From positions 75,635,012-75,699,011 of the forward strand of contig JAOWCC010000577.1 in the NCBI GenBank assembly GCA_030867875.1: DNA of 64,000 nucleotides, read 5' to 3'. Made by a program: the position numbers and the translations under genes. Origin of the DNA: Actinernus sp. WN-2022. Lineage: Eukaryota > Cnidaria > Anthozoa > Actiniaria > Actinernidae. The notes below the pieces were generated by a model. It did no database searches and was not told where the DNA came from. It saw nothing but the letters and a program-made list of their open reading frames with translations. Shown here one piece after another: positions 11,979-55,082 of this stretch; the stretch's first letter is position 1; each line of letters begins with the position of its first letter.

Positions 11979-12608
11979 ATGGATGCCTTGGTAGAACATA
12001 TCCCATTCAATGCCCTCGTAGTAGGACCTACAAACTGTGGAAAAACGGCTTTTCTCGTGGAGCAGCTTCGTGGTGCATTTCGTGGCAAGTTCGACTACAT
12101 AGTATTGATCTGTCCCACATATGCCCACAGCAAAACCTATCGTGGATTTGCCCATCGAGACCCTCGTTTCTTTGTTATGTCACCTCCGCAGGATGCTATC
12201 AATGCCGCACTGCATGTTTGTGCCACATTTTGGAAAGGGACCAATACCCTACTCATCCTCGACGATTGTGCTGCCTCAAAGGATGTAAAAAGAAGAACTG
12301 ACAAGCTCGTGGAACTGGCCTTTTCTGCTCGTCACATTGGTATTTCTGTTTGGGTGCTCACCCAACAACTCACGAGTATCTGCAAACCTTTCCGCGAAAA
12401 CGTAGCCATGGTAGTGGCCTTTCATACGGCGTCAGCTCTGGATGGAAAAAGGCTCTTCGAGGACTACGGCGGAGGCGTAGAGGTGGATGAGAAAAAGACG
12501 TTGGTCTCGGAGCTCCAGGCCCACAAGTTTGCTCGCATATGCTTTTGTTTAAGACATCCCTTTGCAGTCGTATTAGAGCTGCCTGCACCTGAAGTATATC
12601 ATGGATGA
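11979..12608 (+). CDS. P1 A32/FtsK-like genome-packaging ATPase
   Basis: This 209-residue P-loop ATPase is of the type that packages Polinton, adintovirus and NCLDV genomes into capsids. Walker A is GPTNCGKT (about residues 16-23), Walker B is LLILDDCA (about 88-95), and VWVLTQQ follows as a sensor-like segment. The start lies one base after the capsid stop. The stop overlaps the next gene's start in ATGGATGA (8 bp). The ORF is intact and 206-209 residues long in all three copies, making it the best-preserved gene of the set. Confidence 0.88.
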   Translation: MDALVEHIPFNALVVGPTNCGKTAFLVEQLRGAFRGKFDYIVLICPTYAHSKTYRGFAHRDPRFFVMSPPQDAINAALHVCATFWKGTNTLLILDDCAASKDVKRRTDKLVELAFSARHIGISVWVLTQQLTSICKPFRENVAMVVAFHTASALDGKRLFEDYGGGVEVDEKKTLVSELQAHKFARICFCLRHPFAVVLELPAPEVYHG

Positions 12609-13564: not shown

Positions 13565-14480
13565 ATGGAGGTTGATTGGGGACATCGACGCAACTGACGA
13601 GACTCAGTTAATTCCAGATGATGATGATGATGACGACTACATGCATAGCCTACTCTAACCCGGTTCAGACGAAGAGGGTGGCGAGAAAATACCTATGCAC
13701 CAAATGGGGACAACTGATGGAGAAAGTAGCCAACCAGAAGCAAACAAAGAGACTTCATTCACGACAAATCCAAATGAAGCTGCTCAAATTCTTGGTCTAA
13801 ACAATCTTAGGAAAACATATCCAGAACTGAACGAAAACTTGTTAATATTATCCTCATCCAAGGAAGGAAATATTCTTATCGAGGTTCGCAACATAAAGAA
13901 GGGTGGTTGGGGAAAACCAAAGCAGTTATTCAACCAGGATGGTAGCATCCGCAAAGACGTAGCGGGCTTAAAAGGCTTCAAACTTGCCATGGGAGTGGGT
14001 GACGAAGTTCTTACGCAAAACGATACAAAGATCGAAGACCTCGTAAAAGACACTATGGTGGATAAGGCTATAATCGAAGATCCTTCCACATCTGAGGTGG
14101 AGGAAACTCAAACACTCGAGAAAGAAAATGAGACCATCAAAGAGCATATGTCGATGAGGGATAGGATAAAAGCTATTTTCAAGAAGTATGGGGTAACAAT
14201 TACTTCCGTCTTACTAGCAGCTGGGGCTGTGATTGGTATCATAGTTTCCATGCTGACGAAGAGCCTGGCTAGTGTAGCAAGTGGTGTCGGTAAGGGTTTG
14301 AAGGCAATAGGAAAAAAGCTGGGGCAGATTCTACCTGGGATGGTTGGAGCAATTGCTAGCTTCTTGTTTCGCACTGCAGGCGAGGTCGTAGGATTCTTGG
14401 CAAAGAACGCCTGGCTGTTGATTGTAGCTGTAGTTGTGTTCGTAGTAGAGCGATATAAGTCGGGACGACGAACGCGTTAG
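13565..14480 (+). pseudogene. P1 coiled-coil / membrane-active virion protein candidate
   Basis: An uninterrupted frame runs from 13,695 to 14,480 (261 aa), but the 5' part (ATG at 13,565) is frame-disrupted, with an Asp-repeat from GATGATGATGAT. Conserved features are a charged helical middle, IKAIFKKYGV followed by a hydrophobic segment, a Gly/Lys-rich amphipathic stretch (GLKAIGKKLGQILPGM), and a C-terminal hydrophobic helix ending in a basic tail. The pattern recalls membrane-lytic capsid proteins such as adenovirus pVI, but that is an analogy only. Its stop overlaps the convergent tail-anchored gene by 4 bp. Confidence 0.7.
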
Positions 14481-16999: not shown

Positions 17000-17593
17000 A
17001 TGGCAAGTGATTATTCGGTTCAAACCCTTCCGACAGCACCACCGATTTATCCTACGCTATCTGGAGAGAATTTTCGCCTGCAAAAGGTGTGTGAAACGCT
17101 TGCGTGCATTGAATCCCAAGAAAAACACTATGAGGGCGTACGTAAAAAGTATGCCCGTGCGCAGGGAATTGTCCACGGTATCGCTGTGGCCACAGGTAGC
17201 CTTAGTGTGCTTTTATCGGGAGGAGGCTTAGTAGTCGCTCTCTCCGGCTTTGGTGTTGTGGTTGGCCTAACCCTCGGTGTTATTGGCGGGATCTGTGGGG
17301 TAATTTCAGCCTATACAGCTGTTGGGGCTAAAAATCTTGGAATAAAAGTTTCTAAGCATGAGAAAACCACTATGTTAGCTAGAGCGAAAGCAAATACACT
17401 TCGTGATCTCGTGTCAAAAGCCTTGCGTGATGAGAAAGTGTCTGACTCTGAGTTCACTCTCATACTTGCCGAAGCAGAAAAATACGAGGCTATGAGGGTT
17501 GAAATTCGCCATAAAGCTTTGGGCAAGGATGAAAAAAGCGTGGAACAAATTCGGAAAGAGCTTCGAAAAGAGCTGCGAGCAAAGTTGGATTAA
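17000..17593 (+). CDS. P1 late-domain (PTAP/YPxL) membrane-hairpin protein
   Basis: A 197-residue protein. The N-terminus has PTAP at residues 11-14 and YPTL at 17-20, short linear motifs that in budding viruses bind Tsg101 and ALIX. Then come a basic helical region (EKHYEGVRKKYARAQ), a long glycine-rich hydrophobic hairpin (about residues 52-108), and a charged helical C-terminus (RKELRKELRAKLD). Homologues in P2 and P3 keep both motifs although other N-terminal residues vary. No enzyme signature is seen. I infer a virion or host-membrane protein that could recruit ESCRT. Coding beyond the stop is discussed separately. Confidence 0.8.
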   Translation: MASDYSVQTLPTAPPIYPTLSGENFRLQKVCETLACIESQEKHYEGVRKKYARAQGIVHGIAVATGSLSVLLSGGGLVVALSGFGVVVGLTLGVIGGICGVISAYTAVGAKNLGIKVSKHEKTTMLARAKANTLRDLVSKALRDEKVSDSEFTLILAEAEKYEAMRVEIRHKALGKDEKSVEQIRKELRKELRAKLD

Positions 17594-21044: not shown

Positions 21045-21600
21045 AGTAGTATATACAATGGGGGTTCTAATTCACGTCCTTTTATAAGCCCCCATTAGTC
21101 CCCCGCTAAGGACCACCACCCACACACATGTTCCTTATATAATCCCTCCTGATCCCCCCATTGATATCCATAGCCAACACATATTCTCCTTATATAAGCC
21201 CCTTTTATTCCCCCAGTAAGAACTACCACCAACACACATTTAATGTGACCATTAAGAAACCCTAATTAGAGATATGGTACCATCATATTATGAGGCGATA
21301 TCACAGCTACTATATCGAAACATCGGAAGTATACTATGGCTAATATATTGTACCTTCCTATAGAAATCCTGACTAAGATCGTAGAGTATGCCGGTCCTAC
21401 ATCATTTGCAAGCATCTCTTTGACTTCAAAACATCTAAATGATGCAGCATCTCTAGCACGCTACAAAAACGTAGATCGAGAGTTCCTAAGACAAGTACTC
21501 ATTTTTGGTCTTAGGTCTGTTTGTAATGATAATGAGCGAGACAATTTGGCTAGGATCTTCGATATTTCCAAGAATGACGTATGCTACGACGATAACGACG
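21045..21600. repeat. P2 left terminal inverted repeat
   Basis: The 556 bp match the reverse complement of 34,221-34,776 with only about five mismatches seen by eye. The outer 200 bp hold three imperfect ~60-bp repeats, each with CCTTATATAAgCCCC-like and ACCACCxACACACAT words. The inner part contains the promoter and first ~88 codons of the F-box gene. The terminus is AGTAGTATATACAATGGGGG. Confidence 0.92.
21243..21296 (+). promoter_or_regulatory. Putative promoter block of the F-box gene
   Basis: ATGTGACCATTAAGAAACCC is followed by TAATTAGAGATATGGTACC and an AT-rich stretch. Nearly the same 50 bp recurs before the zinc-ribbon gene (22,198-22,251) and, through the TIR, at 34,527-34,580. Conservation before two unrelated coding regions suggests a shared promoter. 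Confidence 0.55.
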
Positions 21601-22031
21601 ATAGCGACTATAGCGATAATTATATGCTAGTCGTTGCTTGCGAAAATGGCCATCTTGATATCGCTAAGTGGCTCGTTAAACATTTACGGATTACCACAGA
21701 TAGCTCCTATGGTGAGGCACTTTTATACGCCTGTGGAAATGGTAATCTTGATGTCATTAAGTGGCTCATAGAGTACTTCCAGGCCACCATAGATTATATC
21801 GACGAGTGCGATGCACTTTGCTACGCCTGTAGAAATGGTCATCTCGATGTCGTTAAGTGGCTCATTGAACACTTCCAGTTCACCACAGAGCATATCTACG
21901 AGTGCAATGCACTTTACTACGCCTGTGAAAATGGACATCTTGATGTTATTAAGTTGCTTTATGAGCACTTCCAGTTTACTTTAGAGTATATCTTGGAAAT
22001 GACCATCTTGCTGTCGTTAGTGGCTCATTGA
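21336..22031 (+). pseudogene. P2 F-box / ankyrin-repeat protein
   Basis: The N-terminal F-box-like segment (LYLPIEILTKIVEYAG, then FASISLTSKHLND, residues 5-36) precedes ankyrin-like repeats of ~32 residues with the pattern YACxNGHLDVxKWLIEHF (four or five units from about residue 100). F-box/ankyrin proteins, common in large DNA viruses, couple targets to SCF ubiquitin ligases, so a host-interaction role is inferred. The frame shifts near 22,000, within a further repeat, so the protein ends after MTILLSLVAH. The 5' half lies in the TIR and is mirrored at 34,075-34,485. Confidence 0.75.
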
Positions 22032-22197
22032 GCAATTCCAGCTCCCCCCATTTCCCATTTCAACCAAAACGGTCAATTCATTAGAATGACAGCCGTCAAT
22101 ACATACCCATTAAGAATTTAGTTTAAAACGATAAGAAAACAAAAAAAGAAAACTGGACGTCTCCAGACCCATCATCCACTCACTAAGAACTACACTT

Positions 22198-22251
22198 AAT
22201 GCAACCATTAAGAAATCCCTATTAGAGATATGGTACCGTTATATTATAAGC
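22198..22251 (+). promoter_or_regulatory. Second copy of the shared promoter block
   Basis: This repeats the 21,243-21,296 block (CCATTAAGAAATCCCT, TTAGAGATATGGTACCGTTA) just 6 bp before the zinc-ribbon ATG at 22,258. Confidence 0.55.
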
Positions 22252-22257
22252 CATAAA

Positions 22258-22551
22258 ATGCGAGGACATAATCAGTGCCGATGGTTAACAATTGGCAGGA
22301 GAACTATTTGTGGTAAGAGTTGTTTATTTGAGTGCTGTAAGCAACATCGACACCAGATCAGAGAAGGATCGTTTGAGCCATACCCCTGTCGTGTGTGTGG
22401 AGTTGGGACTCAAGCAGAGACGCGACTTTGTCGCCCGTGTGGTAATGTAACCGCACAGATAAACCTGATGCGTAAAGGTAGGAGGGCTAGAAAACGCTTC
22501 AACGATGTATTGACTGAACTTGTTACAACGAATCTCCCTATTAAAGAATAG
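22258..22551 (+). CDS. P2 zinc-ribbon protein (97 aa)
   Basis: An intact 97-residue protein with CRVCGVG...LCRPCG (about residues 43-62), upstream Cys/His pairs (CCKQH), and a basic C-terminal helix (RKGRRARKRFNDVL). It is homologous to the P1 protein at 17,822-18,121. It lies downstream of the shared promoter block and reads away from the left TIR. It is probably an early, nucleic-acid-binding regulator by analogy only. Confidence 0.7.
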   Translation: MRGHNQCRWLTIGRRTICGKSCLFECCKQHRHQIREGSFEPYPCRVCGVGTQAETRLCRPCGNVTAQINLMRKGRRARKRFNDVLTELVTTNLPIKE

Positions 22552-23745
22552 ATATACTAATAATATAATCGTAGTAACTAAGGCATACAACAATTATCAG
22601 AGAGACGTACTAGATGTATATGAACAGGCGCGCATCATCCTTGATGAACCGATCCCCGAAATGGAAGAAAAACGTTTAAGACGACCATTACTTCCAAAAA
22701 GATATGTGGCATTGCCAAAACCCAAACCACGTAGAAAACGTAACGCTATCCTTGCAGAGTTTGACCCCATGCAGCGCAATTCCCCCCACTAGTATTCAAA
22801 CGCACTAAATGGGTCATTGGTAAGTTCTTACGAGGCTGGCAGATGGATGTTCCAGAGGGCCACGAATTTGGTGCCGACCCAATGGCCTTCTTAGATGGTG
22901 TACGCCACACAATACGTGAAAAGCTAGAGGAAGAGATTGTCTGATGAACAACTCAGTGTTTGGTAAGACAATGGAGAATCTGCGTAAGCGCGTGGATGTG
23001 AAGCTGGTGCGTGCAAGAGAGGAGGACAAGCTTCGGCGGCTGATATCAAGTCCAACATTTGCTAGATCGAATATCTTTGATGATGGCCTTGTAGCACTAC
23101 ACATGCATAAAAGCAGGCTCGTGCTGAACCGCCCCGTTTACGTTGGTATGAGCATCCTTGACCTATCCAAACACCTGATGTACGACTTCTACTACAATCA
23201 ACTTCAGCCCCAATATGGTAATCGATGTGAACTTCTCTACACAGACACAGATTCGCTATTGCTTGAGATCCAAACCGAAAACGTCTACGAAGACATGATC
23301 TCAAATGCAGACCTATACGATACAAGTGATTACCCAAAAAACCATCCACTATACGACACTACCAATAAGAAGGTTCTTGGAAAGATGAAGGATGAGTGCG
23401 TAGGCGTTGCCATCGTAGAGTACGTTGGACTTCGACCTAACATGTATTCGATCGTATGCGCAGACACCAAGGAGATTCGCAAGGCTAAAGGAGTACGGAA
23501 GTATGTTGTGAAGAAGCACATGCGACACGAGCAGTATAAGGAGTCTCTTTTCGATAGGAAGACCTTCAGACATGGAATGAATATGCTGCGAAGCATTGGC
23601 GCCAGATCTATGGTCTGCGAGTTAATAAAATCTCACTTTCGCCCCTGGACACAAAACGTTGGATTTCCGAAAATGGAATCGATACCCTAGCCCATGGGCA
23701 TAAAGATATACTTACAGAGCAGGAGAACTTCACCGACTTAGCTTA
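22550..23745 (+). pseudogene. P2 protein-primed DNA polymerase B, internally deleted and frameshifted
   Basis: The C-terminal half is clear from 22,944: motif B region (MNNSVFGKTMENLRKR) and motif C (LLYTDTDSLLLE) of protein-primed family B polymerases. The preceding frame (about 22,550-22,943) has a plausible N-terminal piece with DPMAFLDGVRHTIREKLEEEI, with a frameshift near 22,785. The exonuclease domain and motif A are absent, so a large internal deletion joins the N-terminus to just before motif B. A second frameshift near 23,605 displaces the C-terminus, which in the other frame runs to 23,745. It cannot be an active polymerase. Confidence 0.8.
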
Positions 23746-24742
23746 AGATCCCATTCGGAGGTAGTTCGGTATCCGGTGGTACGACTTGTAGCTCTTCACG
23801 CACAAATCCACGTGAAACCTGTGAATCATACAAATAATACAGAACTGGCTGACCAGAAGAAACCATACTACGTGAAATATTATATGTTTCCAAACTCCAT
23901 ATACGGTCGGTAGCACGCCTTCGTCCACCTTCTAGCTCACCAGGAGCGTATAGATATCGAACGTTTATGTTGAATGGCAGCCTTTTCTCTTTGAGACCAA
24001 CTAGGCGTATCCGTTCGTCCCGAACCCGTGCTGGTTCTGCCGGGTTTGATTCGATTCCTTTGGAACTCGCAATTGCTATGGACGGTTGTTTTCCTGTCAA
24101 ACGCGTAGGTTCGTTGTTCAAAGCTCTTACGACTGCAGGTAAGCGAGCCACCCATTCGACAGATCTATCGTCCTTTCCCTGCGAAGCAAGCACCATTTCT
24201 TGAGCATATTGATGCCCAAATAGCCTTTCAGATAGGGTTCGGTTGAATCGCTCAACAATTGCTTGATCTCTATGGATATCCACACGTCCACGTGGAGTAA
24301 CGGCACCCATGAACTCACGGCCTGGATCGACTTGTAAACGTTTTGGCCATGTCAGTGGACTTCGCTCGTAGATTCGCTCAAATGCCGCAGCAACTTCTTT
24401 AGCTTCTTTAGTGGCTAATGGCTCGGCTTCTTTATATCTGGATGCGACATCCACAACTGTAAGTGCATATTTGTATAGTTTTCGTCCACGCCCAGGACGA
24501 TCGTGCGGAAGAAAGAGCAGATCGGCTTGATGCACCTCGTTTGGCGTAGAGACATTGAATTTAGGTCTTGGAACGTATTGAGGAGCCGGTAAATAGATCT
24601 GCCATATGGCTTGTTTTTCCAACCACGTCCGAGTCACATCTTCGGATGCGTTGGCCGCAGTGGCAAGATGTTTAATCGCCGCGAATCCTTTCCAGTAGCC
24701 TTTTGGGCTATAGTAGATATTTGCGAGTACCTTTCTATCCAT
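23738..24742 (-). pseudogene. P2 retroviral-type integrase, catalytic spacing shortened
   Basis: A 334-residue Polinton integrase: an N-terminal helical segment, the RNase H-fold core with Asp74 (EVHQADLLFL), Asp139 (LQVDPGREFMG) and Glu164 (AIVERFNRT), and a C-terminal chromodomain-like module (LEGGRRRATD ... GFVREELQVVPP). The frame is open, but only 24 residues separate the second Asp from the Glu, against 34 in P3. A 10-residue in-frame deletion therefore removed part of the core and probably inactivates it. It overlaps the PolB end by a few bases tail-to-tail. Confidence 0.82.
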
Positions 24743-25232
24743 ATATTGGTATAAGGTCTAAGTACCCACCCTTTATATGGAGCAGTCTTTTGATCTGGCG
24801 AGACGTTTGGTTCCACCCGAAATCTATCGTCTTCGTATTTTCGTTGATGAGAAAGTCTAAAAGGTGTTCGTGTCCTAGTAGTAAACCTATTTCGGATTCG
24901 CTACATATCGTGTTGTTCAAAAGCTCAGTTGAGCAAACCACTGCGCTGCGAAGGTTTAAGATTACGTCCCTCATAGGAGTTTTCATTTTTAGATTTACTA
25001 AGTCTACCGACTCCACCTCAGTTAGATTATCGTCTTTTAGCGATTTAAGATCCACCGACTCTACCTCGCCTTCGAAACCTAACTCGGTTAGGAGCGAATT
25101 CGTACAATATGAAATAGGGGAGTTGGGAGCAAATAAAGCATAAGTGGTGATGAAGTTTCCAGTTCCCTTAGCCTTCACATTAACGTGTATGATATACTTT
25201 TCAGGGCTCACGAGGGGATCTTTCATTTTCAT
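24735..25232 (-). CDS. P2 retropepsin-fold-like protein without catalytic Asp
   Basis: A 165-residue protein resembling the DUF1758/Pao-type aspartic peptidase fold: TYALFAPNSPISYCTNSLLTEL where active members have ALxDSGSxxSFIxxxLaxxL, and later IGLLLGHEHLLDF, like the LLIG-D-hL flap-side motif. The Asp-Ser-Gly triad is replaced by Pro-Asn-Ser, so peptidase activity is not expected. The P3 homologue (39,948-40,454) has Pro-Lys-Ser there. An internal degenerate repeat of VESVDL is visible. It overlaps the integrase start by 8 bp. The function is unknown. Confidence 0.62.
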   Translation of the reverse strand: MKMKDPLVSPEKYIIHVNVKAKGTGNFITTYALFAPNSPISYCTNSLLTELGFEGEVESVDLKSLKDDNLTEVESVDLVNLKMKTPMRDVILNLRSAVVCSTELLNNTICSESEIGLLLGHEHLLDFLINENTKTIDFGWNQTSRQIKRLLHIKGGYLDLIPIYG

Positions 25233-25317
25233 TTTAAGTTGCCCCTACTATGAACGTACGCATACGTTTATTCAAATCGATGTAAAAACCGCTCGATTTT
25301 TTTTTGTTCCTTTATTA

Positions 25318-25738
25318 TAGCCATCGACTGGCAACGTATCCTATCGCGAGCGATCCACCACCTACGAATACCAATTCAGCAGTTCTATGTGAACTAGGTG
25401 GTCGATAGTAATCGGAGAAATTAGGCCTTTTCAGATCCTGCGGACGTATGTGGTCTAGCTTGGTTCGTATTGAATAAGGAGGAAGCTCGATCCAAATTGG
25501 CTAGTTCTTCGCGAGAGTAGCGCTTCAGACGTATCTGCGATTGTATCCAGTTGGACAATTTTTGTCGATTCTCCTGGTAAGTAGCCCAATCAGCTTGATA
25601 TTTCTCGAGGGCTTTGTCGTGTCTTTCAGCCTCTATGGCCAACAAGTCTGGATCTTTACCATCAATCGCTTTTTGGGCGTAGTGCGCGGCTATACCTGCG
25701 ACGGAAAAAGCCACCGCGGTACCAATCGCCGCACCCAT
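25318..25738 (-). pseudogene. P2 small N-terminally anchored coiled-coil protein, frameshifted
   Basis: A hydrophobic glycine-rich N-terminus (AIGTAVAFSVAGIAAHY) is followed by a charged helix. The frame breaks at about 25,425. Beyond it another frame keeps a conserved tail with SDYYRPPSS, FVGGGSL and ASRWL at the end, exactly as in P3 (40,665-41,096). The intact form would have a membrane segment at each end with a coiled coil between. No family is recognised. Confidence 0.65.
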
Positions 25739-25744
25739 GGCGCG

Positions 25745-25978
25745 TTACTCAACAGGCTTCCAATACCCCTTGTTCTCGAGGTATTTCATTGCTGCAAGGC
25801 TTCCCGCTAATACGGCAGTCCACTTCGCGTAGTTTGTGACTGAAGCTGAAGGGTCGTTAAGCATGGACTCTTTGGTTATTTTTTTCGCTAAAAACCCAAT
25901 GCCTGCCGCTAGTCCAGATAATACGACGGCGTCCTGTAATGTTTTCATCAACGTATTCTCTACCATCATACGCACCAT
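25745..25978 (-). CDS. P2 small membrane protein (77 aa)
   Basis: Two hydrophobic stretches (AVVLSGLAAGIGFLA and TAVLAGSLAAMKYL) flank a conserved hinge, MLNDPSASVTNYAKW. The P3 homologue (41,105-41,326) keeps MLNDPPAS and KWTAVLAGS. It probably has two transmembrane helices. It lies 7 bp from the neighbouring coiled-coil gene in a tightly packed minus-strand row. Confidence 0.65.
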   Translation of the reverse strand: MVRMMVENTLMKTLQDAVVLSGLAAGIGFLAKKITKESMLNDPSASVTNYAKWTAVLAGSLAAMKYLENKGYWKPVE

Positions 25979-26004
25979 TCATTATGTTATGACTTCAAAT
26001 GGAC

Positions 26005-26354
26005 TTACTCCATTGTAGACCTTACGCGTGTTCGTTCCGAATGGGTAGGCCGTGCGTCTTCAGTGTTTTTCGGTGATACCACTCGAGACCCAGCATTGTA
26101 TTGGTAGTATAGACCTACTAGCGTAGCGCCTACGCCAATAGCTGTGAGTGTAGTATTGGCAGATAAGTTATCGAACCAGCCTTCGTTCTCGCATCCAGGT
26201 ACACCGCTTTGTTGAGCCTCCTCTTTCTCACGAAGAGCCTCTCTACCAAGGCGATTGTTTTCTGCCATTTTTCTCCCAGCCCCAACGCGGTTTGGATTTT
26301 TTCCTTAGGCGCGGGCTTCGGGTCCGTATTAGTAATTTGATCAACTTCAGCCAT
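26005..26354 (-). pseudogene. P2 Lys/Glu-rich membrane protein, frameshifted
   Basis: The first frame starts MAEVDQITNTDPKPAP; after a shift near an A-run at about 26,295 the second frame continues with charged helix (LREKEEAQ), then WFDNLSANTTLTAIGVG and a short hydrophobic segment ending LYYQY. It is the P2 counterpart of 41,377-41,745 (P3) and 13,157-13,405 (P1). Probably a single membrane-spanning protein with a charged N-terminal arm. Confidence 0.65.
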
Positions 26355-26399
26355 AGCTTATTATAACTTCGTTATGGTTAGCTTCAATACGTTAACATT

Positions 26400-26485
26400 A
26401 TGTTAATTACGCTAAAGATTACGCTAATTACGCTAAAGATTACGCTAATTACGCTAAATATTACGCTAATTACGCTAAAGATTCT
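26400..26485. repeat. ATTACGCTAA tandem repeat
   Basis: About four copies of a 21-bp unit (ATTACGCTAATTACGCTAAAG) lie at the 3' end of the ~205-aa gene, whose stop codon falls inside the repeat. Confidence 0.85.
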
Positions 26486-27092
26486 TCAAATTTGAATATG
26501 CCCCAAGTACTTCATCGCTTTGTGGGGTAGCCACTTCATATTCGCTGACTTCGGCATCCTGTTCCGCCGACATATAATGGCTAACAATATGACAAAAGGC
26601 ACTAGTTAGTGCTACAAATGGGCCTGCTGTGTAGGACAATGATCCAGCCAGGGCAGATATCTCGTTTCGGACTAAGCGGTCTTCTTGTAGATCTTTCAAC
26701 AGTTCTTGTTGAGAATCTATAGGCACCGCACATGCGACTACACGAGTTGCTAGACTTAGTGCTCTATCCACTAAGCAGTTATTTATTTGCTTTGCTATGA
26801 CGGCTTGGTATCTACGATATAGGCGTTCTATGTCTTTATCAGGTAACTTAGAAATGTCCCCAATAGAAAAATCCTTCCCTAGATATTCTATTGTCGTACC
26901 AGTCACAGCTAGAATAGAAAGAGCTTCCCGATAGTCACCTATTTTTATGCTGCGATCTTCATCGGTGGTATGGCGACAAGCTTCACATGTAGCTCCGCTA
27001 CGTACAGCTCTACTGCGGGTTATGGGTGGAGGACCTGTCACATCCCCACCTAGTACGTCTTTGAGGGCTTCATCCATATCCATATTCGACAT
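26475..27092 (-). CDS. P2 conserved ~205-aa protein next to the ATPase
   Basis: This is the counterpart of 12,601-13,203 and 41,690-42,262. The N-terminus has DVTGPPP, then a P2-specific CEACRHTT insertion, ILAVTGTTIEYLG, FSIGDIS, RRYQAV and LVRNE. The last residues run into the ATTACGCTAA repeat, so the C-terminus has probably been replaced. It starts 1 bp after the ATPase stop. No known family; mostly helical. Confidence 0.7.
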   Translation of the reverse strand: MSNMDMDEALKDVLGGDVTGPPPITRSRAVRSGATCEACRHTTDEDRSIKIGDYREALSILAVTGTTIEYLGKDFSIGDISKLPDKDIERLYRRYQAVIAKQINNCLVDRALSLATRVVACAVPIDSQQELLKDLQEDRLVRNEISALAGSLSYTAGPFVALTSAFCHIVSHYMSAEQDAEVSEYEVATPQSDEVLGAYSNLKNL

Positions 27093-27093
27093 G

Positions 27094-27720
27094 TTATAGT
27101 ATGTGGTGGTATATCACAGGAGCAGGTAACTCTAACACAACAGTAAAAGGACTTCGTAAACAAAAGCATAGACGAGAGAACTTGTGGGCCTTGAGCTCAG
27201 ATTGCAACTTTTTTTCCTCTATACCTTCGCCGTAGTCCTCGACAAGTTTCTTACCATCTATAGCCGACACCAAATGAAAGGCCACTACTATGGCTATATT
27301 TTCACGAAAAGGTTTGGAGATACTTGTGAGTTGCTGGGTGAGCACCCAAACCAAAATACCAATATGGCGAGCAGGAAAGCCCAGTTTCGAAAGATTGCTA
27401 GTCCTTCCTTTTACATCCTTTGAAGCGGCACAATCATCTAGGATGAAGAGAGTATTGGTTCCTTCGTAGTAGGTGGTACACACCCCCAATACCGCATTGA
27501 TGGCATCCTGTGAGGGTGATATAACGCGAAATTTTTTGTCGCCTATAGCGAAGCCGCGATAGGTTTCGTTGTGGTCATATGTGGGGCATATCAATACGAT
27601 GTAGTCAAATTTTTCACGAAAGGCTCCGCGAAGCTGTTCCACAAGAAAAACCGTTTTTCCACAATTCGTTGGCCCCACAATCAGGGCATTGAATGGGATT
27701 CGTTCTACTAGTGCGTCCAT
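27094..27720 (-). CDS. P2 A32/FtsK-like packaging ATPase
   Basis: 208 residues, with Walker A GPTNCGKT (about 16-23), Walker B LFILDDCA and the VWVLTQQ segment. It is intact and co-linear with the P1 and P3 copies. It would pump DNA into preformed capsids. The last residues (VIYHHIL) differ from the shared YHG ending because the overlap with the next gene is lost here. Confidence 0.88.
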   Translation of the reverse strand: MDALVERIPFNALIVGPTNCGKTVFLVEQLRGAFREKFDYIVLICPTYDHNETYRGFAIGDKKFRVISPSQDAINAVLGVCTTYYEGTNTLFILDDCAASKDVKGRTSNLSKLGFPARHIGILVWVLTQQLTSISKPFRENIAIVVAFHLVSAIDGKKLVEDYGEGIEEKKLQSELKAHKFSRLCFCLRSPFTVVLELPAPVIYHHIL

Positions 27721-27733
27721 TTAAAGTTATACG

Positions 27734-28981
27734 TTAGTATTTAATATTTAACAGCCCCCCACGTTCAATAGTTGCCTGCGCATCAGCAAGCACAAATATA
27801 TGCATATTAACAATTCCTAAGTCACCCTTACGATGAATCCTTAGCTGTAGATTTTAACCACTGCCTATTTGGGCCAGACCATCTCCATGAGTATTACTAT
27901 CTTTAGAGGTACGACAGTCAATGAGTACAGCGAACTTGTTCTCGTAAAACTTTTGCGGTGTCATGGATGTAGTGGCTGTCGTTCCGACACCTGTACAAAA
28001 CCAATTCTTTGCTGACTCCCAAAAGTCTTCTGGTAGCATCCCAGCAGGAAAGAGATCGTTAGGGCGTCCATTTACGTCCATCTCAACCTTGGTGATACCC
28101 GGATTTACGAACTTCTCACTGTCTCGGATGCTTGCAGTATGTTGCTTCACAAAGAGAAGAAGAAGTCCAGTTAATGAGCGACGAAGGATGTTTACGTTTG
28201 CAGATACTAGTGTGTCGGTTGGTGTGTTGACTAAAATGGTACTGAAGTATGCGATGTGGTTGTACATGAAGTCTTTACCAAAATCGTAGACTTGCTTGGT
28301 CTGCACTGCAAGAACGGAACTATCGATGGTTTGATATTCGAGCTCGATGTTTGTGAGCTGATATGTACCTATTTTCGTGCTGTCAGATCCAACTATTATG
28401 TCTATGGCTGGTGCTAGAGTCAATGCGAAGGATAAGACTTCGTGTAGTGCGTGTGGATAAAAGACGCCGTAGGTCGTGATAATATCGTGATCAATAGGTA
28501 TTCTGTACTTACTACCATATACAGCCAGTATCGCATTGTCAGTCGCATTCGAAGTGACTGCATCTCCGGCCTTGGAGCGAAGTTTGTTCACGTTGCTGGA
28601 TTGAATACCCTGTGATATACTTGCCTCTCGTTTTGGCTTAGATAGATAGAGATCTCTATATACCTGTGGTAGATCTATCCTAGGACAATTTTCTAAGATA
28701 TCGAGATTCATTTTTGTGACCCGCTGCGATACCAAACAGCATCCGACGTTGGCCACCAGATAGTTGTTGGCATGACCTCCAGATAGAGTGATATTGGCTA
28801 TGAGTGCCAGACTATCAGGTACTAGAAGTCTGTTTTCGCCGAGCATGGGAACATCAACTCTCAAAGTCACACCTGGATTGGCCATTGCGGGGTTGAAATT
28901 CATCGGATAGATAGCACGTCTGGCTTTGAGAGATTCGCCCTCTCTAGGAGCGTGATCAGGATGGAGCTTTGATGATATCAT
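27734..28981 (-). pseudogene. P2 major capsid protein (hexon-like) with a premature stop
   Basis: The start MISSKLHPDH was chosen over an upstream Met by comparison with P1 and P3. The frame is open for 375 residues through NITLSGGHANN, YRDLYLSK, YGSKYRIPIDHD, HGVFYPHAL, IIVGSDSTKIGTY and GLLLLFVKQHTASIRDSE. A TAA at 27,854-27,856 replaces what is Lys in P3, and the same frame continues for about 40 more residues (VNMHIFVLADAQ) to a stop at 27,734. Losing the final strands would be expected to harm the second jelly roll. The start is divergent from the coiled-coil gene 59 bp away. Confidence 0.82.
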
Positions 28982-29040
28982 GTTTCCTACCACACAAATT
29001 GAATATTAAACCCTTATATATGTTAGGAGATATCTTCAAT
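28982..29040. promoter_or_regulatory. Divergent capsid / coiled-coil promoter (P2)
   Basis: The 59-bp gap contains CCCTTATATATG and GAATATTAAACCC. It has no room for separate promoters, so bidirectional transcription is likely. Confidence 0.5.
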
Positions 29041-30090
29041 ATGGGATCGAAGTGGCGTGAGGAAGATGCGGACGTAGAAGATAAGGATGAAGCTAGCGCT
29101 AAAAAACACCGCGAATACGCTGAACGCGAAACCCTGACTAATATGCGTGAGCAGATGGAGACCTCGTTCCCAACCGCACCAGATGGCGAGGCTATAGAAA
29201 TGAAAACCCTACGCGACTATACTGCACAGGGCACTAGGCCAAAAGATAACCAGGCTGAAACATCATTCATCGAGGTGAGGAGGGGTATGGTATTCACCGA
29301 TCGAATCGCAAGAGAAACAAGTGAGGATTTGGTTAAGACAATAAGGGATTTCTACCCAGACGTAGGCATACGTGGTACGTTAGAGGTATCTATCACGCCG
29401 GATGGCAGAATCGAGCTCCATGCGATGGATAGCAAAGAGAAGCCTATACCTTTGACCTCTAAGAAAGGAGAAATATACAAGAAGATGGGTAAGGACCTCA
29501 AAAGGGCTCTAGGGCCTACGCGAGAAGAGGCAGACAAGGAAGTCGAACAGGCTGAACGACAGCTAAAAGAGCATATCGAGAATGAGGAAGAGATATTTCA
29601 AGACCCTAAGTCAACTCCAGCTCAGAAAGAAGCAGCTAAGAATGAGATAATCGATGATCAAAATAAAATAGATGACCTCGAACGTCAAAAAGAAGCCCTC
29701 CAAAAAAGTATGTCACTGCGATACCGTATCAAAGCTATTTTCAAGAAGTACGGGGTTGGTGTAACTGGCGTGGTGGTCGCAGCAAGCACTGTGATTGGCG
29801 TCATAGTTTCCAAGTTGTTGAATAGTCCAAATAATACCCCAGATGATGATGGGATGTTTGATAAAATAAAAGAAGCAACGAAAAAGGGGTTAAAGGTGGC
29901 TGGAAAGGGACTAGAGGAAATAGGAAAGAAGCTGGGAGAAATCCTACCTAAAATGCTTGGACCAATTGTGAGCTTTCTATTTAGTATGGCTGGCAAGGCC
30001 GTGGGGTTATTAGCACAGAATGTTTGGCTGTTAATCGTGGCCGTAGTCGTAATCGTAATAGAGCAGTATAAATCATTGGAACGACGATAA
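29041..30090 (+). CDS. P2 coiled-coil / membrane-active virion protein candidate
   Basis: 349 residues and intact. The acidic, charged N-terminal half has long heptad-like stretches (about 160-222: EADKEVEQAERQLKEH and similar). MSLRYRIKAIFKKYGV starts at residue 224, followed by a hydrophobic segment (about 241-263), a Gly/Lys amphipathic stretch (KVAGKGLEEIGKKLGEILPK) and a C-terminal hydrophobic helix ending EQYKSLERR. It abuts the convergent tail-anchored gene with no gap. A pVI-like capsid cement or membrane-disrupting role is inferred from layout, not from family membership. Confidence 0.72.
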   Translation: MGSKWREEDADVEDKDEASAKKHREYAERETLTNMREQMETSFPTAPDGEAIEMKTLRDYTAQGTRPKDNQAETSFIEVRRGMVFTDRIARETSEDLVKTIRDFYPDVGIRGTLEVSITPDGRIELHAMDSKEKPIPLTSKKGEIYKKMGKDLKRALGPTREEADKEVEQAERQLKEHIENEEEIFQDPKSTPAQKEAAKNEIIDDQNKIDDLERQKEALQKSMSLRYRIKAIFKKYGVGVTGVVVAASTVIGVIVSKLLNSPNNTPDDDGMFDKIKEATKKGLKVAGKGLEEIGKKLGEILPKMLGPIVSFLFSMAGKAVGLLAQNVWLLIVAVVVIVIEQYKSLERR

Positions 30091-31705
30091 TCAGCGAAAC
30101 ATCATCCATGTAGATGCGGCCGCCACGATAGCCACAACTACTAAGTTAGTTTCGTGGGTGGTAATCACGTTTGCAACCTGCGTTGGTGGCTTTGTGGATT
30201 GCTTCGACGTCTCTTCCGAAATGTGTTTGCTGGCCGCAGCCGCATGTTTTGATGGTTTTTTATGCACTTCATTGATGCCATTGATTCCGAGCTGCATATC
30301 TTTGCTGACTATCTTGAGGTTATTGTTATACCCCATCACAGGTTTGAAACGTAGGTCCATGTTTCCTGGAAGAAACCATACTCCGGGAGTAACTGCATAA
30401 TTGAGGCGCATATTGTCGTCTCCAATGATCTTTTGAAAACGCTTTATGCTAGCGGCGATTCCTCCTGGTGCTACGATTTCGTCTTCGAGCAGAGAAAGAA
30501 ACTTATCACGAACCTCCTTCGCATGTCCAGACTTACCAAGTATTGATCCTATTGCTAGGTTCTGTGCTCCAAGTACGCAAATCACGTATGCCTCAATGCT
30601 TTGGTTTAATCGGCCGCGACCAATGACTGTCAATCCCGGATGGGTGTTAGCTGTGGCTGGAACAAATTGCTTCCACTGCTCAGCTGCCTCTTCGTTTATG
30701 ATGCGCGTCCTTCCAGCGCCGAGCTCTTTATCAGGGTCTCCACGAAGGTATGCCTTCATTTCGTACTCATCGCCAAAAGTAGGGTTTACATTCCACCGCT
30801 TAGCTGCCAGTATCCATGTGGATGTGGTGCCCAGGCCTGTCATACGCCCTTCTCGGAACCGAAAATCAGTTTTTAGAGAAATACCAAAATCTTTACAAAT
30901 TCGGCGGTAAACCGCTCTGCTGTGGGGGTTGTTCCAAGCAGTCCATAGTGAGGTTCCAGGAAGCGGAGCACCTATTTCCTGTAGGATTTTACGAGCCGTA
31001 AAATATATGTGAAACCTTAGCAGTGATACGACGCGCCTTGGTAGATCTTCCAGCATCTCAATGTAGATCCCACAGCCTTCTGTGGCTAGAAACATAGCAA
31101 AGTTGACCTGTTGTGGCCAGAAATTAGGGCCTCGTAGCCACTTATAAATGTCAACCATCTTACCCCCTGTGGGGCCTCCACCAGCTCCACCACCATATAA
31201 CATAACGAGGTCTGAAAAGATGTCTGGGACACCTACAGTGAAGTAACTATCCTCATTAACATAAATGTCTAGATCTTGGGAGTTGAAAGGATTTTTTACC
31301 CCATAAATCGGATGTCCAATCCAGCGGAAGGCGCATTTTCCTGGACTTGTCTGCTAATAGTAGAGACTGTGGGAAACCCCCAACCGTAACGTGTTTGTGT
31401 ATGTCATGTGGTGCATTATCGGGTTGGGTCTGGCGTTTTTCAGTTGCCTTGTGTTGCCGCTCATCTTGTACCCTCTCGTAGACTGCTTTGGTACGAAGGG
31501 CTATGTTAAGCGCCCGGCCTGTGTCTCCAAGCCAGCCCATCAACTTACCTCCTCCATCTATCGTAGTAGGGCCTTCCTCTGTGAACACACGGTGGGACAT
31601 CCCACAGTAAATGAAATCGACGTTATCCCCACCACTAGGTTCAAAGTATCTGAACGTAGCATCCGGAAATAGATACTTGAACTGCTGCCAAGCCTTATCT
31701 GCCAT
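30091..31705 (-). pseudogene. P2 tail-anchored Polinton protein (~535 aa), one frameshift
   Basis: The N-terminal piece (31,705 to about 31,290) starts MADKAWQQFKYLFPD and ends at LWGKKSFQL, where the frame shifts. The rest continues through DIYVNEDSYFTV and FWPQQVNFAMF to RGRLNQSIEAYVICVLGAQ, ending in a single hydrophobic helix and WMMFR. It has the same layout as P1 and P3. The C-terminal anchor with almost no lumenal tail suggests post-translational insertion. Function unknown; probably a virion or membrane-scaffold protein. Confidence 0.72.
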
Positions 31706-31747
31706 GCTTATTGAACATATGATATTAAAGTAAACTCGAAGTTTAAT

Positions 31748-32407
31748 ATGGTAATCTTAAATGTCACCTGTCCTACGGCTGACCATACGGTCTACTTTGA
31801 CCGACCTATTCTTATCAATAATATTTCGCTAGTCACTATTAGTCATAATTGGTGGAACCTAGCTGAGAAAGGGAGCTTTAAGTGGGATGACAATAGTGTG
31901 GTGTTTCCATACGAAATTATGGCGGGGCATTATAGTACAGAAACCTTGATAACCTACTTCGATCCCGCAGTTAAGACTGGTTTCTTGAAATTCATAGACC
32001 ACCCATTTAGGAAATATTGGATTATTGAGGTCAAGAAACCAATCCAGTTCACTAAGAATATCTGCGATTTGTTTGGTATCAAAGTAAATAAAGATGCGAC
32101 AGACTATGTGACTATCGATGTGGGGAAATACACCCTGGTGCCACACGATATTCATTATGCATATATCTACTGCGATGTGGTAGATTCCGACTTCTCACTT
32201 CTTGAGGAAAAGCCATCTAAAATCCTATATGTTCTTAATATGGGGTCCCACAAGTTTAACAACACGACTTACTACCCCCAAACTCTCCTACCCATTCGAG
32301 CCCTAGGAACAATGCGGAGCTACATTCGCCTCACAGTTCGCGATGAGAAAGGCAATATCATAGACTTCAATAAGCAGCCTATACATTTCGTATTGAAGAT
32401 TGAGTAA
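31748..32407 (+). CDS. P2 penton-like minor capsid protein candidate
   Basis: 219 residues and intact, starting MVILNVTCPTADHTVYFD. The C-terminal LTVRDEKGNIIDF plus a final LKIE strand is characteristic of single-jelly-roll Polinton pentons. KKPIQFTKNICDLFGI is conserved with P1 and P3. It is divergent from the tail-anchored gene by 42 bp and followed by the late-domain gene after 31 bp. Confidence 0.72.
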   Translation: MVILNVTCPTADHTVYFDRPILINNISLVTISHNWWNLAEKGSFKWDDNSVVFPYEIMAGHYSTETLITYFDPAVKTGFLKFIDHPFRKYWIIEVKKPIQFTKNICDLFGIKVNKDATDYVTIDVGKYTLVPHDIHYAYIYCDVVDSDFSLLEEKPSKILYVLNMGSHKFNNTTYYPQTLLPIRALGTMRSYIRLTVRDEKGNIIDFNKQPIHFVLKIE

Positions 32408-32438
32408 ATCATATAATATATAGTAAAGCTATAACATA

Positions 32439-33059
32439 ATGGCAAGCGATTCGAATCAACTACTTCCAACGGCACCACAGCTCTATCCACAGCTCGGCCC
32501 AGGGGAACGGAGTGACACTGGAAAGAATTTTCGGTTGCAAACAGTCCGAGATACGCTTTCAGATATCGAAACTCAAGAAAAACACTATGAAGGTGTGCGT
32601 AAGAAATACGCCCGCGCACAAGGAATTGTCCATGGTGTCGCTGTGGTAACAGGAGGTCTATCCGTATTATTATCAAGTTCTGGATTGGGAGTTGCTCTAA
32701 CTGGGATTGGAATAGTGATTGGTCTACCGCTTGGTGTTATCGGTGGACTCTGTGGATTAATTTCAGCATCTACAACTGTGGGGGCTAAAAAGATCGGAAA
32801 AAAAGTTTCTAAACATGAGAAAACCGCTATGTTAGCTAAAGCAAAAATTAATACGATTCGTGATCTAGTATCGAAGGCCCTTCGCGATGAAAATATATCT
32901 GACTCAGAATACGGTCTCATCCTCGCTGAAGCAGATAAATACGAGATTATGAGGTCTGAAATTCGCCGAGAGACTTCGATGAGTGAAAAAAATATGGAAC
33001 AAATTCGAACCGAAGTGCGAAAGGAAATGCGAGAAAAACTTGGCAGTCTAGTGGGATAA
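32439..33059 (+). CDS. P2 late-domain (PTAP/LYPxL) membrane-hairpin protein
   Basis: 206 residues and intact. PTAP lies at residues 10-13 and LYPQL at 15-19, matching the Tsg101- and ALIX-binding late-domain consensus used by retroviruses. A P2-specific insertion (GPGERSDTGK) separates them from the conserved NFRLQTVRDTL helix. EKHYEGVRKKYARAQ, a glycine-rich hydrophobic hairpin (about 65-115) and a charged C-terminus follow. Codons in the motifs differ synonymously from P1 (CCAACGGCACCA against CCGACAGCACCA). Budding or membrane recruitment is inferred. Confidence 0.82.
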   Translation: MASDSNQLLPTAPQLYPQLGPGERSDTGKNFRLQTVRDTLSDIETQEKHYEGVRKKYARAQGIVHGVAVVTGGLSVLLSSSGLGVALTGIGIVIGLPLGVIGGLCGLISASTTVGAKKIGKKVSKHEKTAMLAKAKINTIRDLVSKALRDENISDSEYGLILAEADKYEIMRSEIRRETSMSEKNMEQIRTEVRKEMREKLGSLVG

Positions 33060-33130
33060 AAATAGATATATCCTATGAAAGAAACCGGCGTGGATTTTAT
33101 TTTAACTTCACTAAGGGCGAAATAGTATAA
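33049..33130 (+). other. Conserved -1 frame peptide after the P2 late-domain gene
   Basis: The -1 frame spanning the stop encodes KIDISYERNRRGFYFNFTK before TAA at 33,128-33,130, matching the P1 peptide at 17,593-17,650 in the same relative frame. Confidence 0.5.
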
Positions 33131-33800
33131 ATTACCGTGTTGTTTTGGTTCATATGCAAATTTCTGTCGGTACGCAGGTGGTATTGATGGCGCAATACTC
33201 GTGGTATTGATGGCGTCATATAGACCACGGGGCCGGCACGCAGGTGACAACTCGTGATGTTGATGGCGCAATAGAGATCATGACTCATCACTATCGGCAT
33301 TGTCGTTTACCTATGGAGCACGGAAGGTTTCTCGCGCTCGTTAGAGACTTAAATGGCGTTCTTGATCAAGTTAGGGGAGTTCATAGACACGGTAAAGGCT
33401 AAATTGACCGGAGAAGAATTCATACCATCTTGCCGAGACCCACACGGAACTAATTGGACAAGAACTCGCGATCGACCGACCGACAAAGAGGAAAATGCCA
33501 CTCGAAGAGGTGAAAGCCTAAACGTCGAGCGTTAAATGGACTTCACAGGAATCGAAGAATACGTGAAATCATAGACTGCTTCGAAAGCATCAAACTAATT
33601 TCTAAGACCCTCAAAGGTAACCAGAAAAAAAAACGTGTCGCAAATTTAGGATGTACGGCGGAGTCGAATATCTTCGTTCACAGTTGGTGAATCATTTTAT
33701 GTTCCTTGTCTTTTTTACACGAGTAATAGTTTAAAAATTTGTTTAAAAATTTCCTAGAGATGAATTTCGACGTTTAAATCGTAAACGGCTGATACAAGGC
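33131..33800 (+). other. P2 right-end region with a possible decayed PLA2-like ORF
   Basis: A word GGTATTGATGGCG repeats with variants at about 33,178-33,275. A 60-codon ORF at 33,353-33,535 has FIPSCRDPHGTNW where parvovirus-type phospholipase A2 domains of some Polintons have a PG..CGPGT..L pattern. The match is weak, and a downstream frame with FESIKLISKTLKGN would be its displaced tail. Nothing here is certain. Confidence 0.25.
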
Positions 33801-34010
33801 GTTTTGGAAGTAATTATGTAAAAAAGCGGTCATTGTCGGACCGGTTTGGTAATTATGTAAAATTATGTGAAAAAGCGGTCCGACAAGGACCGGTTTGGTA
33901 ATTATGTAAAAAAGCGGTCCGGCAAGGACCGGTTTGGTAATTCAGTATAAATTATGTAAAAAAGCGGTCCGACAAGGACCGTTTTCATAATTTGACATAC
34001 AATAAAAACT
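33801..34010. repeat. Hairpin-bearing tandem repeat GCGGTCCGACAAGGACCG
   Basis: Three to four units of roughly 40-55 bp each contain AAAAAGCGGTCCGACAAGGACCG, a perfect short stem-loop (CGGTCC / GGACCG), followed by GTTTGGTAATTATG. An AATAAA lies directly beyond at about 34,001-34,006. The hairpins with a polyadenylation word suggest a 3'-end processing region, but this is unproven. Confidence 0.7.
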
Positions 34011-34074
34011 ATTTGTGTACATAGCACGTTGAAGTTGTTTTATTGACCCCCAGTTTTGCTTTTGGGTTCTTTCT

Positions 34075-34485
34075 TTATCGGGATTTTTTCTTCTCGTGTA
34101 TTTCACTATCGCTAGTTAGACCGTGTCTCATATAGATGGGCTCAAAGTGGGAATTGTAAGCAATCAACTCATTGATAAAACGCACGACCGAACCCTTATG
34201 TATATCACATCGTTTAACAACGTCGTTATCGTCGTAGCATACGTCATTCTTGGAAATATGGAAGATCCTAGCCAAATTGTCTCGCTCATTATCATTACAA
34301 ACAGACCTAAGACCAAAAATGAGTACTTGTCTTAGGAACTCTCGATCTACGTTTTTGTAGCGTGCTAGAGATGCTGCATCATTTAGATGTTTTGAAGTCA
34401 AAGAGATGCTTGCAAATGATGTAGGACCGGCATACTCTACGATCTTAGTCAAGATTTCTATAGGAAGGTACAATATATTAGCCAT
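34075..34485 (-). pseudogene. Mirror-image truncated F-box gene at the P2 right TIR
   Basis: The first ~88 codons repeat the left F-box gene (MANILYLPIEILTKIVEYAG...) because they lie within the TIR. At the inner TIR edge (34,221) the frame runs on into unrelated sequence for about 48 codons (VVKRCDIHKGS...). It has an F-box but no ankyrin repeats. It could be transcribed from the same TIR promoter, giving a bare F-box protein. Confidence 0.7.
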
Positions 34486-34776
34486 AGTATACTTCCGATG
34501 TTTCGATATAGTAGCTGTGATATCCCCTCATAATATGATGGTGCCATATCTCTAATTAGGGTTTCTTAATGGTCACATTAAATGTGTGTTGGTGGTAGTT
34601 CTTACTGGGGGAATAAAAGGGGCTTATATAAGGAGAATATGTGTTGGCTATGGATATCAATGGGGGGATCAGGAGGGATTATATAAGGAACATGTGTGTG
34701 GGTGGTGGTCCTGAGCGGGGGACTAATGGGGGCTTATAAAAGGACGTGAATTAGAACCCCCATTGTATATACTACT
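34221..34776. repeat. P2 right terminal inverted repeat
   Basis: Reverse complement of 21,045-21,600 over 556 bp, ending GTATATACTACT at 34,776. Visible differences from the left arm include CTCAGG for CTAAGG, GGCACC for GGTACC and one Asp-to-His codon in the F-box gene. Confidence 0.92.
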
Positions 34777-54034: not shown

Positions 54035-54402
54035 ATGGCAAGCGATTCGATTCAAACAATTCCAACGGCACCACAGATCTATCCCCAGCTCACTGGAGAG
54101 AATTTTCGGCTGCAAACAGTCCGCGATACGCTTTCGGATATAGAAACCCAAGAAAAACATTACGAAGGTGTACGTAAAAAATATGTCCGTGCGCAGAGAA
54201 TAGTTCACGGCGCCGCTGTGGTAACAGGTAGTCTATCCGTGCTTTTGTCAAGCTCAGGCCTGGCTGTTGCTCTAACCGGGGTTGGTGTCGTGATTGGCCT
54301 GCCACTTGGCGTTATCGGCGGACTCTGTGGGGTAATTTCGGCCGCTACGACTATTGAGGCTAAAAAGCTTGGAACGAAAGTTTCTAAACATGAGAAAACC
54401 AT
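54035..54402 (+). pseudogene. P3 late-domain membrane-hairpin protein, 3' truncated
   Basis: MASDSIQTIPTAPQIYPQL opens the protein (PTAP at 10-13, YPQL at 16-19). The basic helix and glycine-rich hairpin are conserved, but similarity to P1/P2 ends at KVSKHEKT (about 54,402); what follows is unrelated. About 80 C-terminal residues are lost with the element's right end. Confidence 0.78.
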
Positions 54403-55082
54403 CAAGGTAAAAACGAAAAGCTCAATATTACAATTTCTATGAAGAAGTATTTGAGAGTAAACTGTCGCTGGTTAGAACGGATCATAAAAGTTGACGACCA
54501 TTCCTACATGTTTTGGTCGATCGAGGACGCATCACATATTTGAAAACAAACACGAGCACTGAGACTTGTTTGTTTCACATCTGACATCAGACCAATCGCT
54601 GTCTCACGATGAAGTAAAAAAGCTGAAATTGAATCTCCAGAAGATTCGGTGTGATCTCACGGCAAATTAACCAATAACGAATTAAAATATCCAAAATGTA
54701 TTCACCTGGGTGTTTTTATTTGACAGAATGGACTCAAACCAGTTTTCGCATTAGGTGAAAACTGTTCAGACCGTCAATAAAATACAAACGTTCAAAGCAT
54801 TTCATTCGGTAGTAAGATAATTTTTGGTGTGATCTCAAAGCGAAACAAACACTGCTATCGGAGCTCATTGATTATTCAAAAATGTCACACTTCTGTTCGT
54901 GCATTTGAGACTCGGACCTCATCGCCTTTTAATTCAAAATCACGCATCCCACATTAAATAAAAAGAATTTCAGAATATTCTATTTGGTAGACGTTTATCA
55001 CTTTGCCAGTATTAAAAGTTGAGAAAATTTCTCGCATTATTTAACTCTGCATTCTGCAATAAAATCACATGTCCCGCGAAGT
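54403..55082. other. Spacer to the right of P3
   Basis: No ORF of note. GTGTGATCTCA recurs at about 54,648 and 54,829 within similar surroundings (TTTTTGGTGTGATCTCA and TTCGGTGTGATCTCA), suggesting a decayed repeat. Confidence 0.4.

Follow-up and report, generated by a model that had tools for sequence, protein, structure and literature searches.

Polintons in the genome of the actiniarian Actinernus sp. WN-2022 encode a small membrane protein, predicted to be a helical hairpin, with late-domain motifs in its tails. Judging from the sequences of its relatives, the near-universal motif of the family is YPx[L/I/V], of the ALIX type, and PTAP or PSAP, seen in roughly half the rows listed, is an accessory and movable addition. 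We consider it very probable, on this evidence, that the hairpin protein binds ESCRT in some way. The favored reading, that it would act as an ESCRT adaptor for non-lytic egress, using ALIX throughout and Tsg101 in many lineages in the manner of orbivirus NS3, is likely. As the original prediction had supposed, no description of late domains or of ESCRT recruitment in Polintons was found among the listed matches of searches in the open-licence literature, and a word search within PMC11071308 and PMC11071296 turned up neither ESCRT nor budding.

Motif-bearing copies in the window and their Polinton setting

The window, meaning the whole 64-kb stretch of DNA that was analysed, contains three Polinton copies, P1, P2 and P3, each with a gene for the hairpin protein. 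The genes and their motifs are as follows.

17000..17593, plus strand: P1 hairpin protein gene, 197 aa (P0001), from translation and own-genome search
17030..17041, plus strand: PTAP of the P1 hairpin protein, a Tsg101-type late domain
17045..17059, plus strand: IYPTL of the P1 hairpin protein, an ALIX-type late domain, Y at 17048
32439..33059, plus strand: P2 hairpin protein gene, 206 aa (P0002), for which an AlphaFold model was made
32466..32477, plus strand: PTAP of the P2 hairpin protein
32481..32495, plus strand: LYPQL of the P2 hairpin protein, Y at 32484
32616..32786, plus strand: hydrophobic hairpin tip of the P2 protein, residues 60-116 (Kyte-Doolittle 19-residue windows above 1.5)
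54035..54442, plus strand: P3 hairpin protein gene, truncated, 135 aa, C-terminal part lost (the tblastn match to P2 stops at 54400)
54062..54073, plus strand: PTAP of the P3 hairpin protein
54077..54091, plus strand: IYPQL of the P3 hairpin protein, Y at 54080

Translation placed the PTAP and YPxL pairs of the three copies at the positions first proposed. Residues 10-20 read PTAP followed by [I/L]YPxL in all three, arranged as PTAP-P-IYPTL in P1, PTAP-Q-LYPQL in P2 and PTAP-Q-IYPQL in P3. The motif codons quoted in the original prediction were also correct, differing synonymously inside the motifs while neighboring residues change. Across seven counted motif codons, no pair of window copies showed an amino-acid change, with four, four and one silent changes for the three pairs; the other tail codons (15, 15 and 11 per pair) showed seven, five and four amino-acid changes, all of these being small numbers. 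The statement that the motifs were kept in three copies holds for the motifs themselves, which are intact in each; the P3 gene that carries one pair is truncated. The sequence CCNACNGCNCC has four occurrences in the window, where 0.56 would be expected, and none of 100 shuffles reached that count; three occurrences are the hairpin-protein motifs and the fourth (29170) lies in a different ORF of element P2.

The setting of the P2 hairpin gene is that of a Polinton, with long terminal inverted repeats, a packaging ATPase and a retroviral-type integrase.

21045..34776, no strand assigned: P2 Polinton element, its terminal inverted repeats (556 nt, 99% alike) lying at 21045-21600 and 34221-34776
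23738..24742, minus strand: integrase (rve) of P2, PF00665 E 3.5e-07, 30.8 bits, 1.8 below the cut-off of 32.6
27094..27720, minus strand: packaging-ATPase-like ORF of P2, A32 type, scored through the P1 copy at 11979-12608
28972..30090, plus strand: second P2 ORF, membrane-protein-like by eye, with PTAP at 29170-29181 (SFPTAPDGE, residue 67)
31748..32407, plus strand: ORF next upstream of the hairpin gene in P2, with relatives in own-genome loci

The element is flanked on both sides by CAAAT (5 bp) if its start is taken as 21045 and by CAAATA, of the 6-bp length usual for a Polinton target-site duplication, if it is taken as 21046, several offsets having been tried. The P1 ATPase copy scored 43.4 bits against PF04665 (cut-off 22.8) and pairs with the P2 copy as inverted repeats I4 and I6. 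A DTDS motif was seen by eye in the ORFs at 22944-23690 and 37532-38824, making them candidates for the protein-primed PolB; neither matched a Pfam family, and the longer one also had no match in PDB or PHROGs. The ORF at 27854-28981 is a candidate for the double jelly-roll major capsid protein by size and place alone, and profile searches with it gave no match.

The presumably minor-capsid-like ORF at 31748-32407 had a relative in all 60 own-genome loci with flanks, and in 55 of them this relative immediately precedes the hairpin gene on the same strand. The gap between the two ORFs was 19-51 bases in 43 of these 55 same-strand pairs, as measured from tblastn match ends (L001-L030 and L074-L103). 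This tight pairing of upstream and hairpin ORFs (31748-33059) suggests their joint expression. The recurrence of this same-strand adjacency in 55 of 60 loci links the hairpin gene to its neighbor and, should our assignment of that neighbor be correct, to the making of particles. The ORF at 28972-30090 may provide a second contact with ESCRT.

Several other features of the window were noted. The P1 relative (13695-14480) of the ORF at 28972-30090 contains TYPEL and lacks PTAP. An ORF on the plus strand (21336-22031) starts within the left-hand terminal inverted repeat of element P2 and encodes ankyrin repeats (PF12796, E 1.6e-24) together with an F-box (PF00646, above cut-off), a combination that occurs in poxvirus proteins. 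Sequence resembling the presumed capsid gene of P3 is split, 4655-5213 pairing with 43416-43974 and 11410-11701 with 43121-43412 as inverted repeats I2 and I5. Between the parts (window 4655-11701) lie two minus-strand ORFs of 645 and 905 aa (5716-10437), an arrangement suggestive of the insertion of a further mobile element.

Motif frequency and placement across the family

A search with the P2 protein as query returned three relatives, and a profile returned 187, of which the best 120 were used. A second profile was built from the core only, with both tails removed to keep the motifs from guiding the search; it returned 196 relatives, of which the best 120 were used and 112 were new. Each list was drawn from 8000 scored candidates. 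The resulting family set comprised 236 rows including the three window copies, with a usable N-terminal tail in 234; one homologue, P0169, is from Nematostella vectensis. YPx[L/I/V] was present in 229 of the 234 tails, as against a mean of 11.9 and a maximum of 23 in 500 shuffles, and P[T/S]AP in either tail in 128 (shuffle mean 1.1, maximum 6). The stricter YPxL was found in 177 of 234 (shuffle mean 5.5). P[ST]AP occurred in 34 N-terminal and 98 C-terminal tails, with shuffle means of 0.8 and 0.3. These excesses persisted among the 14 representatives obtained by clustering at 55% identity: YPx[LIV] was found in 14 (0.51 shuffled), P[ST]AP in either tail in 8 (0.06), YPxL in 7 (0.17), and P[ST]AP in 7 N-terminal tails (0.05) and 1 C-terminal tail (0.01).

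Among the 112 new rows from the tail-blind search, YPx[LIVM] lay within the first 48 residues in 106; P[ST]AP was found in 16, always within the first 48 residues, and was lacking in 96. A motif count made blind to the hypothesis on 23 representatives gave nine leading motifs, four of which were IY..L, YP.L, IYP and P.AP; GEN, beside the core, was another. Since 106 of the 234 rows and 96 of the 112 tail-blind new rows lack P[ST]AP, Tsg101 binding is not a family-wide trait. Some rows scored as lacking the motif carry near-misses such as ATAP and ASAP. The original prediction had named homologues without both motifs, from independent Polinton families, as its test. Three of 234 lacked both motifs, namely P0133 (IYTVL), P0189 (doubtful start) and P0191 (IYPQF), and the claim survives them; the Polinton setting was seen for window element P2, and the 233 homologues outside the window are sequences without genomic context, so that they can count only as putative members of independent Polinton families.

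P[ST]AP also changes place. Among the 234 rows, 15 had it upstream of YP, 14 downstream of YP, 94 in the C-terminal tail and 4 both downstream and C-terminally; one row had it in an N-terminal tail without YP, and it was absent from 106. Wherever it occurred in a set of 124 rows and in the 112 tail-blind rows, P[ST]AP lay within 45 residues of one end of the protein. A core-only tree shows it ahead of YP in the clade of the window copies and in some further clades, behind YP in others, and C-terminal in the largest, which amounts to at least 16 changes of P[ST]AP state and at least 11 of presence. This tree represents 233 rows by 66 representatives, leaving out P0003 (short core) and two rows without tails, and came from a quick search with 20 of 63 inner branches open. 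Three P[ST]AP placements by clade, with freely changing neighbors, are the position-independence expected of late domains.

The residues around the tyrosine bear on which host protein would read the motif. YPx[LIV] may instead be a tyrosine sorting signal, YxxPhi, for clathrin adaptors, with PTAP incidental. The residues that such signals allow at Y+3 are those seen in the family, namely L, V, I and in rare cases F (V or I rather than L in 52 of the 230 rows with YP, 31 V and 21 I). YxxPhi requires neither a P at Y+1 nor hydrophobicity at Y-1, but nearly all family members have both. Of the 230 rows with YP, 226 carry a hydrophobic residue just before Y, a better fit to ALIX than to a plain YxxPhi signal. 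A sorting signal would also leave unexplained the repeated relocation of P[ST]AP, the exchange of T and S within it, and the purifying selection described below, and we regard this alternative as very improbable. We know of no test of YPxV for ALIX; ALIX has been reported for YPXL/I, according to a title cited within PMC2397435.

Codon constraint in own-genome copies

The 1.39-Gb genome from which the window derives was searched with P2 and with P1, and the best 150 of 4910 and the best 150 of 4703 candidates, two overlapping lists, were taken. Reading of 121 genome stretches gave 113 readable N-termini (8 stretches were unreadable there), 108 distinct frames and, with the window copies included, 103 anchored frames; the anchor was missing in 5 of the 108, three of which visibly carry PTAP and YP. 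The three copies first noted are thus a small part of those that exist: P[ST]AP was present in 96 of the 103 anchored copies, YPx[LIV] in 99 and YP in 103. The seven copies without P[ST]AP, which have for example PTAS, PTSP, PTAL or, in L016, a deletion, may be decaying.

Codon counts were made on 102 rows, one short row having been dropped. For the motif codons P, T/S, A, P, Y and P, pN was 0.042 and pS 0.335 (pN/pS 0.13), whereas the two interposed x positions gave 0.544 and 0.411 (pN/pS 1.32) and the four codons just upstream of the motifs 0.367 and 0.316 (pN/pS 1.16). The two hydrophobic motif positions gave 0.141 and 0.679 (pN/pS 0.21), and 80 core codons 0.108 and 0.458 (pN/pS 0.24). The T position of the motif was occupied by T in 79 rows, S in 22 and L in 1. 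These ratios are uncorrected pairwise averages that treat the copies as independent though they are related, and the Y codon, with no silent variation, is uninformative. An earlier, smaller set of 66 rows gave pN/pS of 0.22 for the motif, 1.9 for x, 1.05 upstream and 0.18 for the core, so that the motif was no lower than the core there. Because of this 66-row result the motif is best described as constrained about as much as the core, and the neighboring positions are not so constrained. The proposed dN/dS check thus found the motifs not to be neutral, while the residues between and just before them are neutral or higher; selection on the motifs, which had been hinted at from three copies, is borne out in 102 own-genome copies as purifying selection confined to the motif codons.

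Candidates for the hairpin gene ran to several thousand in the first-look lists for this genome (4910 and 4703, of which 150 were scored in each), and the Polinton family may be greatly expanded in it. The P1 and P2 hairpin genes were found again, at 100% protein identity, at C1312:77169408 and 77187168, about 1.5 Mb from the window and 17,760 bases apart, as against 15,439 in the window. Part of the window seems to be duplicated in the assembly, since these identical copies lie about 1.5 Mb away with a different spacing.

The conserved positions were also viewed in an alignment of 59 rows, hand-picked by us from the 236 as spread over the tree and used both for the second AlphaFold model (P0046) and for a column count; the five rows without YPx[LIV] are not among them. 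Of its 200 columns 9 are fully invariant, and the motif's Y and P account for two of these, although mean identity in the other columns of the tail is 44%, compared with 61% for the core. Invariance of this kind is as strict as that of a structural contact, and the tail peptide could on this basis dock the protein onto the capsid, its likeness to late domains being coincidental; the place of the hairpin gene directly downstream of the presumed minor-capsid-like ORF in 55 of 60 loci fits such a role. Docking, however, predicts that neighboring residues and placement are held. The x positions are neutral instead, P[ST]AP switches ends, and both motifs match known ESCRT ligands, all of which makes capsid docking very improbable. 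Chance, or shared ancestry of young copies without selection, might be entertained for the three window copies, which are few and close and give small codon counts. It is contradicted by the shuffle tests, the relocation of P[ST]AP and the codon test on 102 copies, and we give it almost no weight.

Predicted structure and the ESCRT-adaptor reading

AlphaFold models were made for P2 (pLDDT 74, pTM 0.47) and for P0046, a member with a C-terminal PTAP (pLDDT 76, pTM 0.53). Confidence was middling in both, and the two belong to one family and are not independent. Both show two very long helices with a turn inside the hydrophobic stretch and a further helix afterwards, a predicted hairpin with a membrane tip; residues 60-116 of the P2 protein contain no D, E, K or R. 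In both models the N-terminal tail is unstructured and of low confidence, as is the C-terminal end with PTAP in P0046, so that the motifs lie in non-helical tails, the disordered location expected of late domains. The top three viral fold matches for both models were the uncharacterised invertebrate iridescent virus proteins A0A5B8RH66, A0A068QKD3 and S6DF61 (E 1.7e-05 to 7.2e-04, 18-26% identity). Foldseek also gave weak matches to models of orbivirus NS3 from Orungo and bluetongue viruses (E 0.09 and 0.23 with one model, 0.21 with the other). PDB fold matches were generic. The SLATT profile PF18181 matched one family member at E 0.083 (13.4 bits, cut-off 26.3), and several viral models named SLATT appeared in the fold lists, all at E above 0.008. 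Pfam Gag_p6 matched two C-terminal PTAP tails below cut-off (E 0.016 and 0.027).

Under the adaptor reading, the gene would belong to the structural gene cluster of Polintons, and the small membrane protein that it encodes would have a long helical hairpin core with its glycine-rich tip inserted in the membrane, and its N- and C-terminal ends would lie on one side of that membrane, probably the cytosolic one. With both ends on one side, P[ST]AP could swap ends. From motif identity and selection, the almost universal [I/L]YPx[L/I/V] would bind the V domain of ALIX, and P[T/S]AP, in many lineages, the UEV domain of Tsg101. Matches over cut-off to exons of both partners were found in the own genome, three for UEV in two or three places and three for the ALIX LYPxL-binding domain within 4.6 kb. 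The protein would thereby mark the membrane and call in ESCRT, and ESCRT-III would cut the membrane around or beside assembled Polinton particles; by analogy with NS3, hepatitis A virus and iridovirus budding, these may then leave the cell non-lytically in or through vesicles.

Among comparable systems, NS3, as described in PMC7409164, bridges particles to the release machinery in the non-enveloped bluetongue virus and is a two-transmembrane-segment protein with the late domains PSAP (for Tsg101) and PPRY (for Nedd4). It has PPxY and a glycosylated loop, whereas the Polinton family has YPx[LIV] and an extra long helix, and the two are likened here by analogy. In HIV-1 p6, PTAP and LYPxnL are reported to recruit Tsg101 and ALIX (PMC2651531, PMC2397435); the motifs of retroviral Gag are on a capsid and matrix polyprotein, unlike those of Polintons, which are on a separate membrane hairpin. 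Hepatitis A virus, nominally non-enveloped, is described as released by ESCRT through late-domain-like signals (PMC9410543), although it is an RNA virus with its signals on capsid proteins. The likeness to the invertebrate iridescent virus proteins is one of fold. ESCRT-dependent budding with YPXnL, ASAP and PPxY proteins, the ASAP protein binding Tsg101, is reported for another iridovirus, tiger frog virus (PMC4880917), and these are not known to be the fold-matched proteins. Nematode Mavericks are Polintons with a membrane-related gene, a putative fusogen (PMC10680173), a feature that in our reading points to a stage with an envelope; fusogens serve entry, and the passage of that article describing this one does not mention late domains.

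The tails may also bind ESCRT adaptors for some step other than release, such as nuclear egress, sealing of an internal membrane, endosomal entry or the sequestration of ESCRT against the host. Polintons probably replicate in the nucleus, which counts for nuclear egress. Herpesviruses are reported to recruit ALIX and ESCRT at the nuclear membrane (PMC3435242, PMC12456135, PMC6107581), and the iridoviruses, source of the top fold matches, are described as possessing an inner membrane (PMC10090177). A role at another step is unlikely; it differs from the adaptor reading in the step and not in the binding, and the present data do not separate such steps from release.

The egress-adaptor reading can be carried further, and we consider this extension somewhat less likely than not: animal Polintons may be enveloped or quasi-enveloped, with a dedicated hairpin egress protein that always uses ALIX and in many lineages Tsg101, with budding cut by ESCRT, and possibly with common descent with invertebrate iridescent viruses. 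According to PMC7805220, an extracellular form of Polintons was undetected at the time of its writing despite their capsid genes. A conserved late-domain protein implies that contact with the cell's membrane-cutting apparatus has been under selection, something difficult to reconcile with a purely intracellular transposon, and two peptides with two host domains offer a testable handle on whether Polintons form particles that leave the cell. Polintons would join the viruses that carry late domains as a separate dsDNA lineage. They carry the same short tags as retroviruses, kept while the surrounding letters drift, and this hints at exit by budding; if they are indeed enveloped, that would account for their passage between cells and species without known virions.
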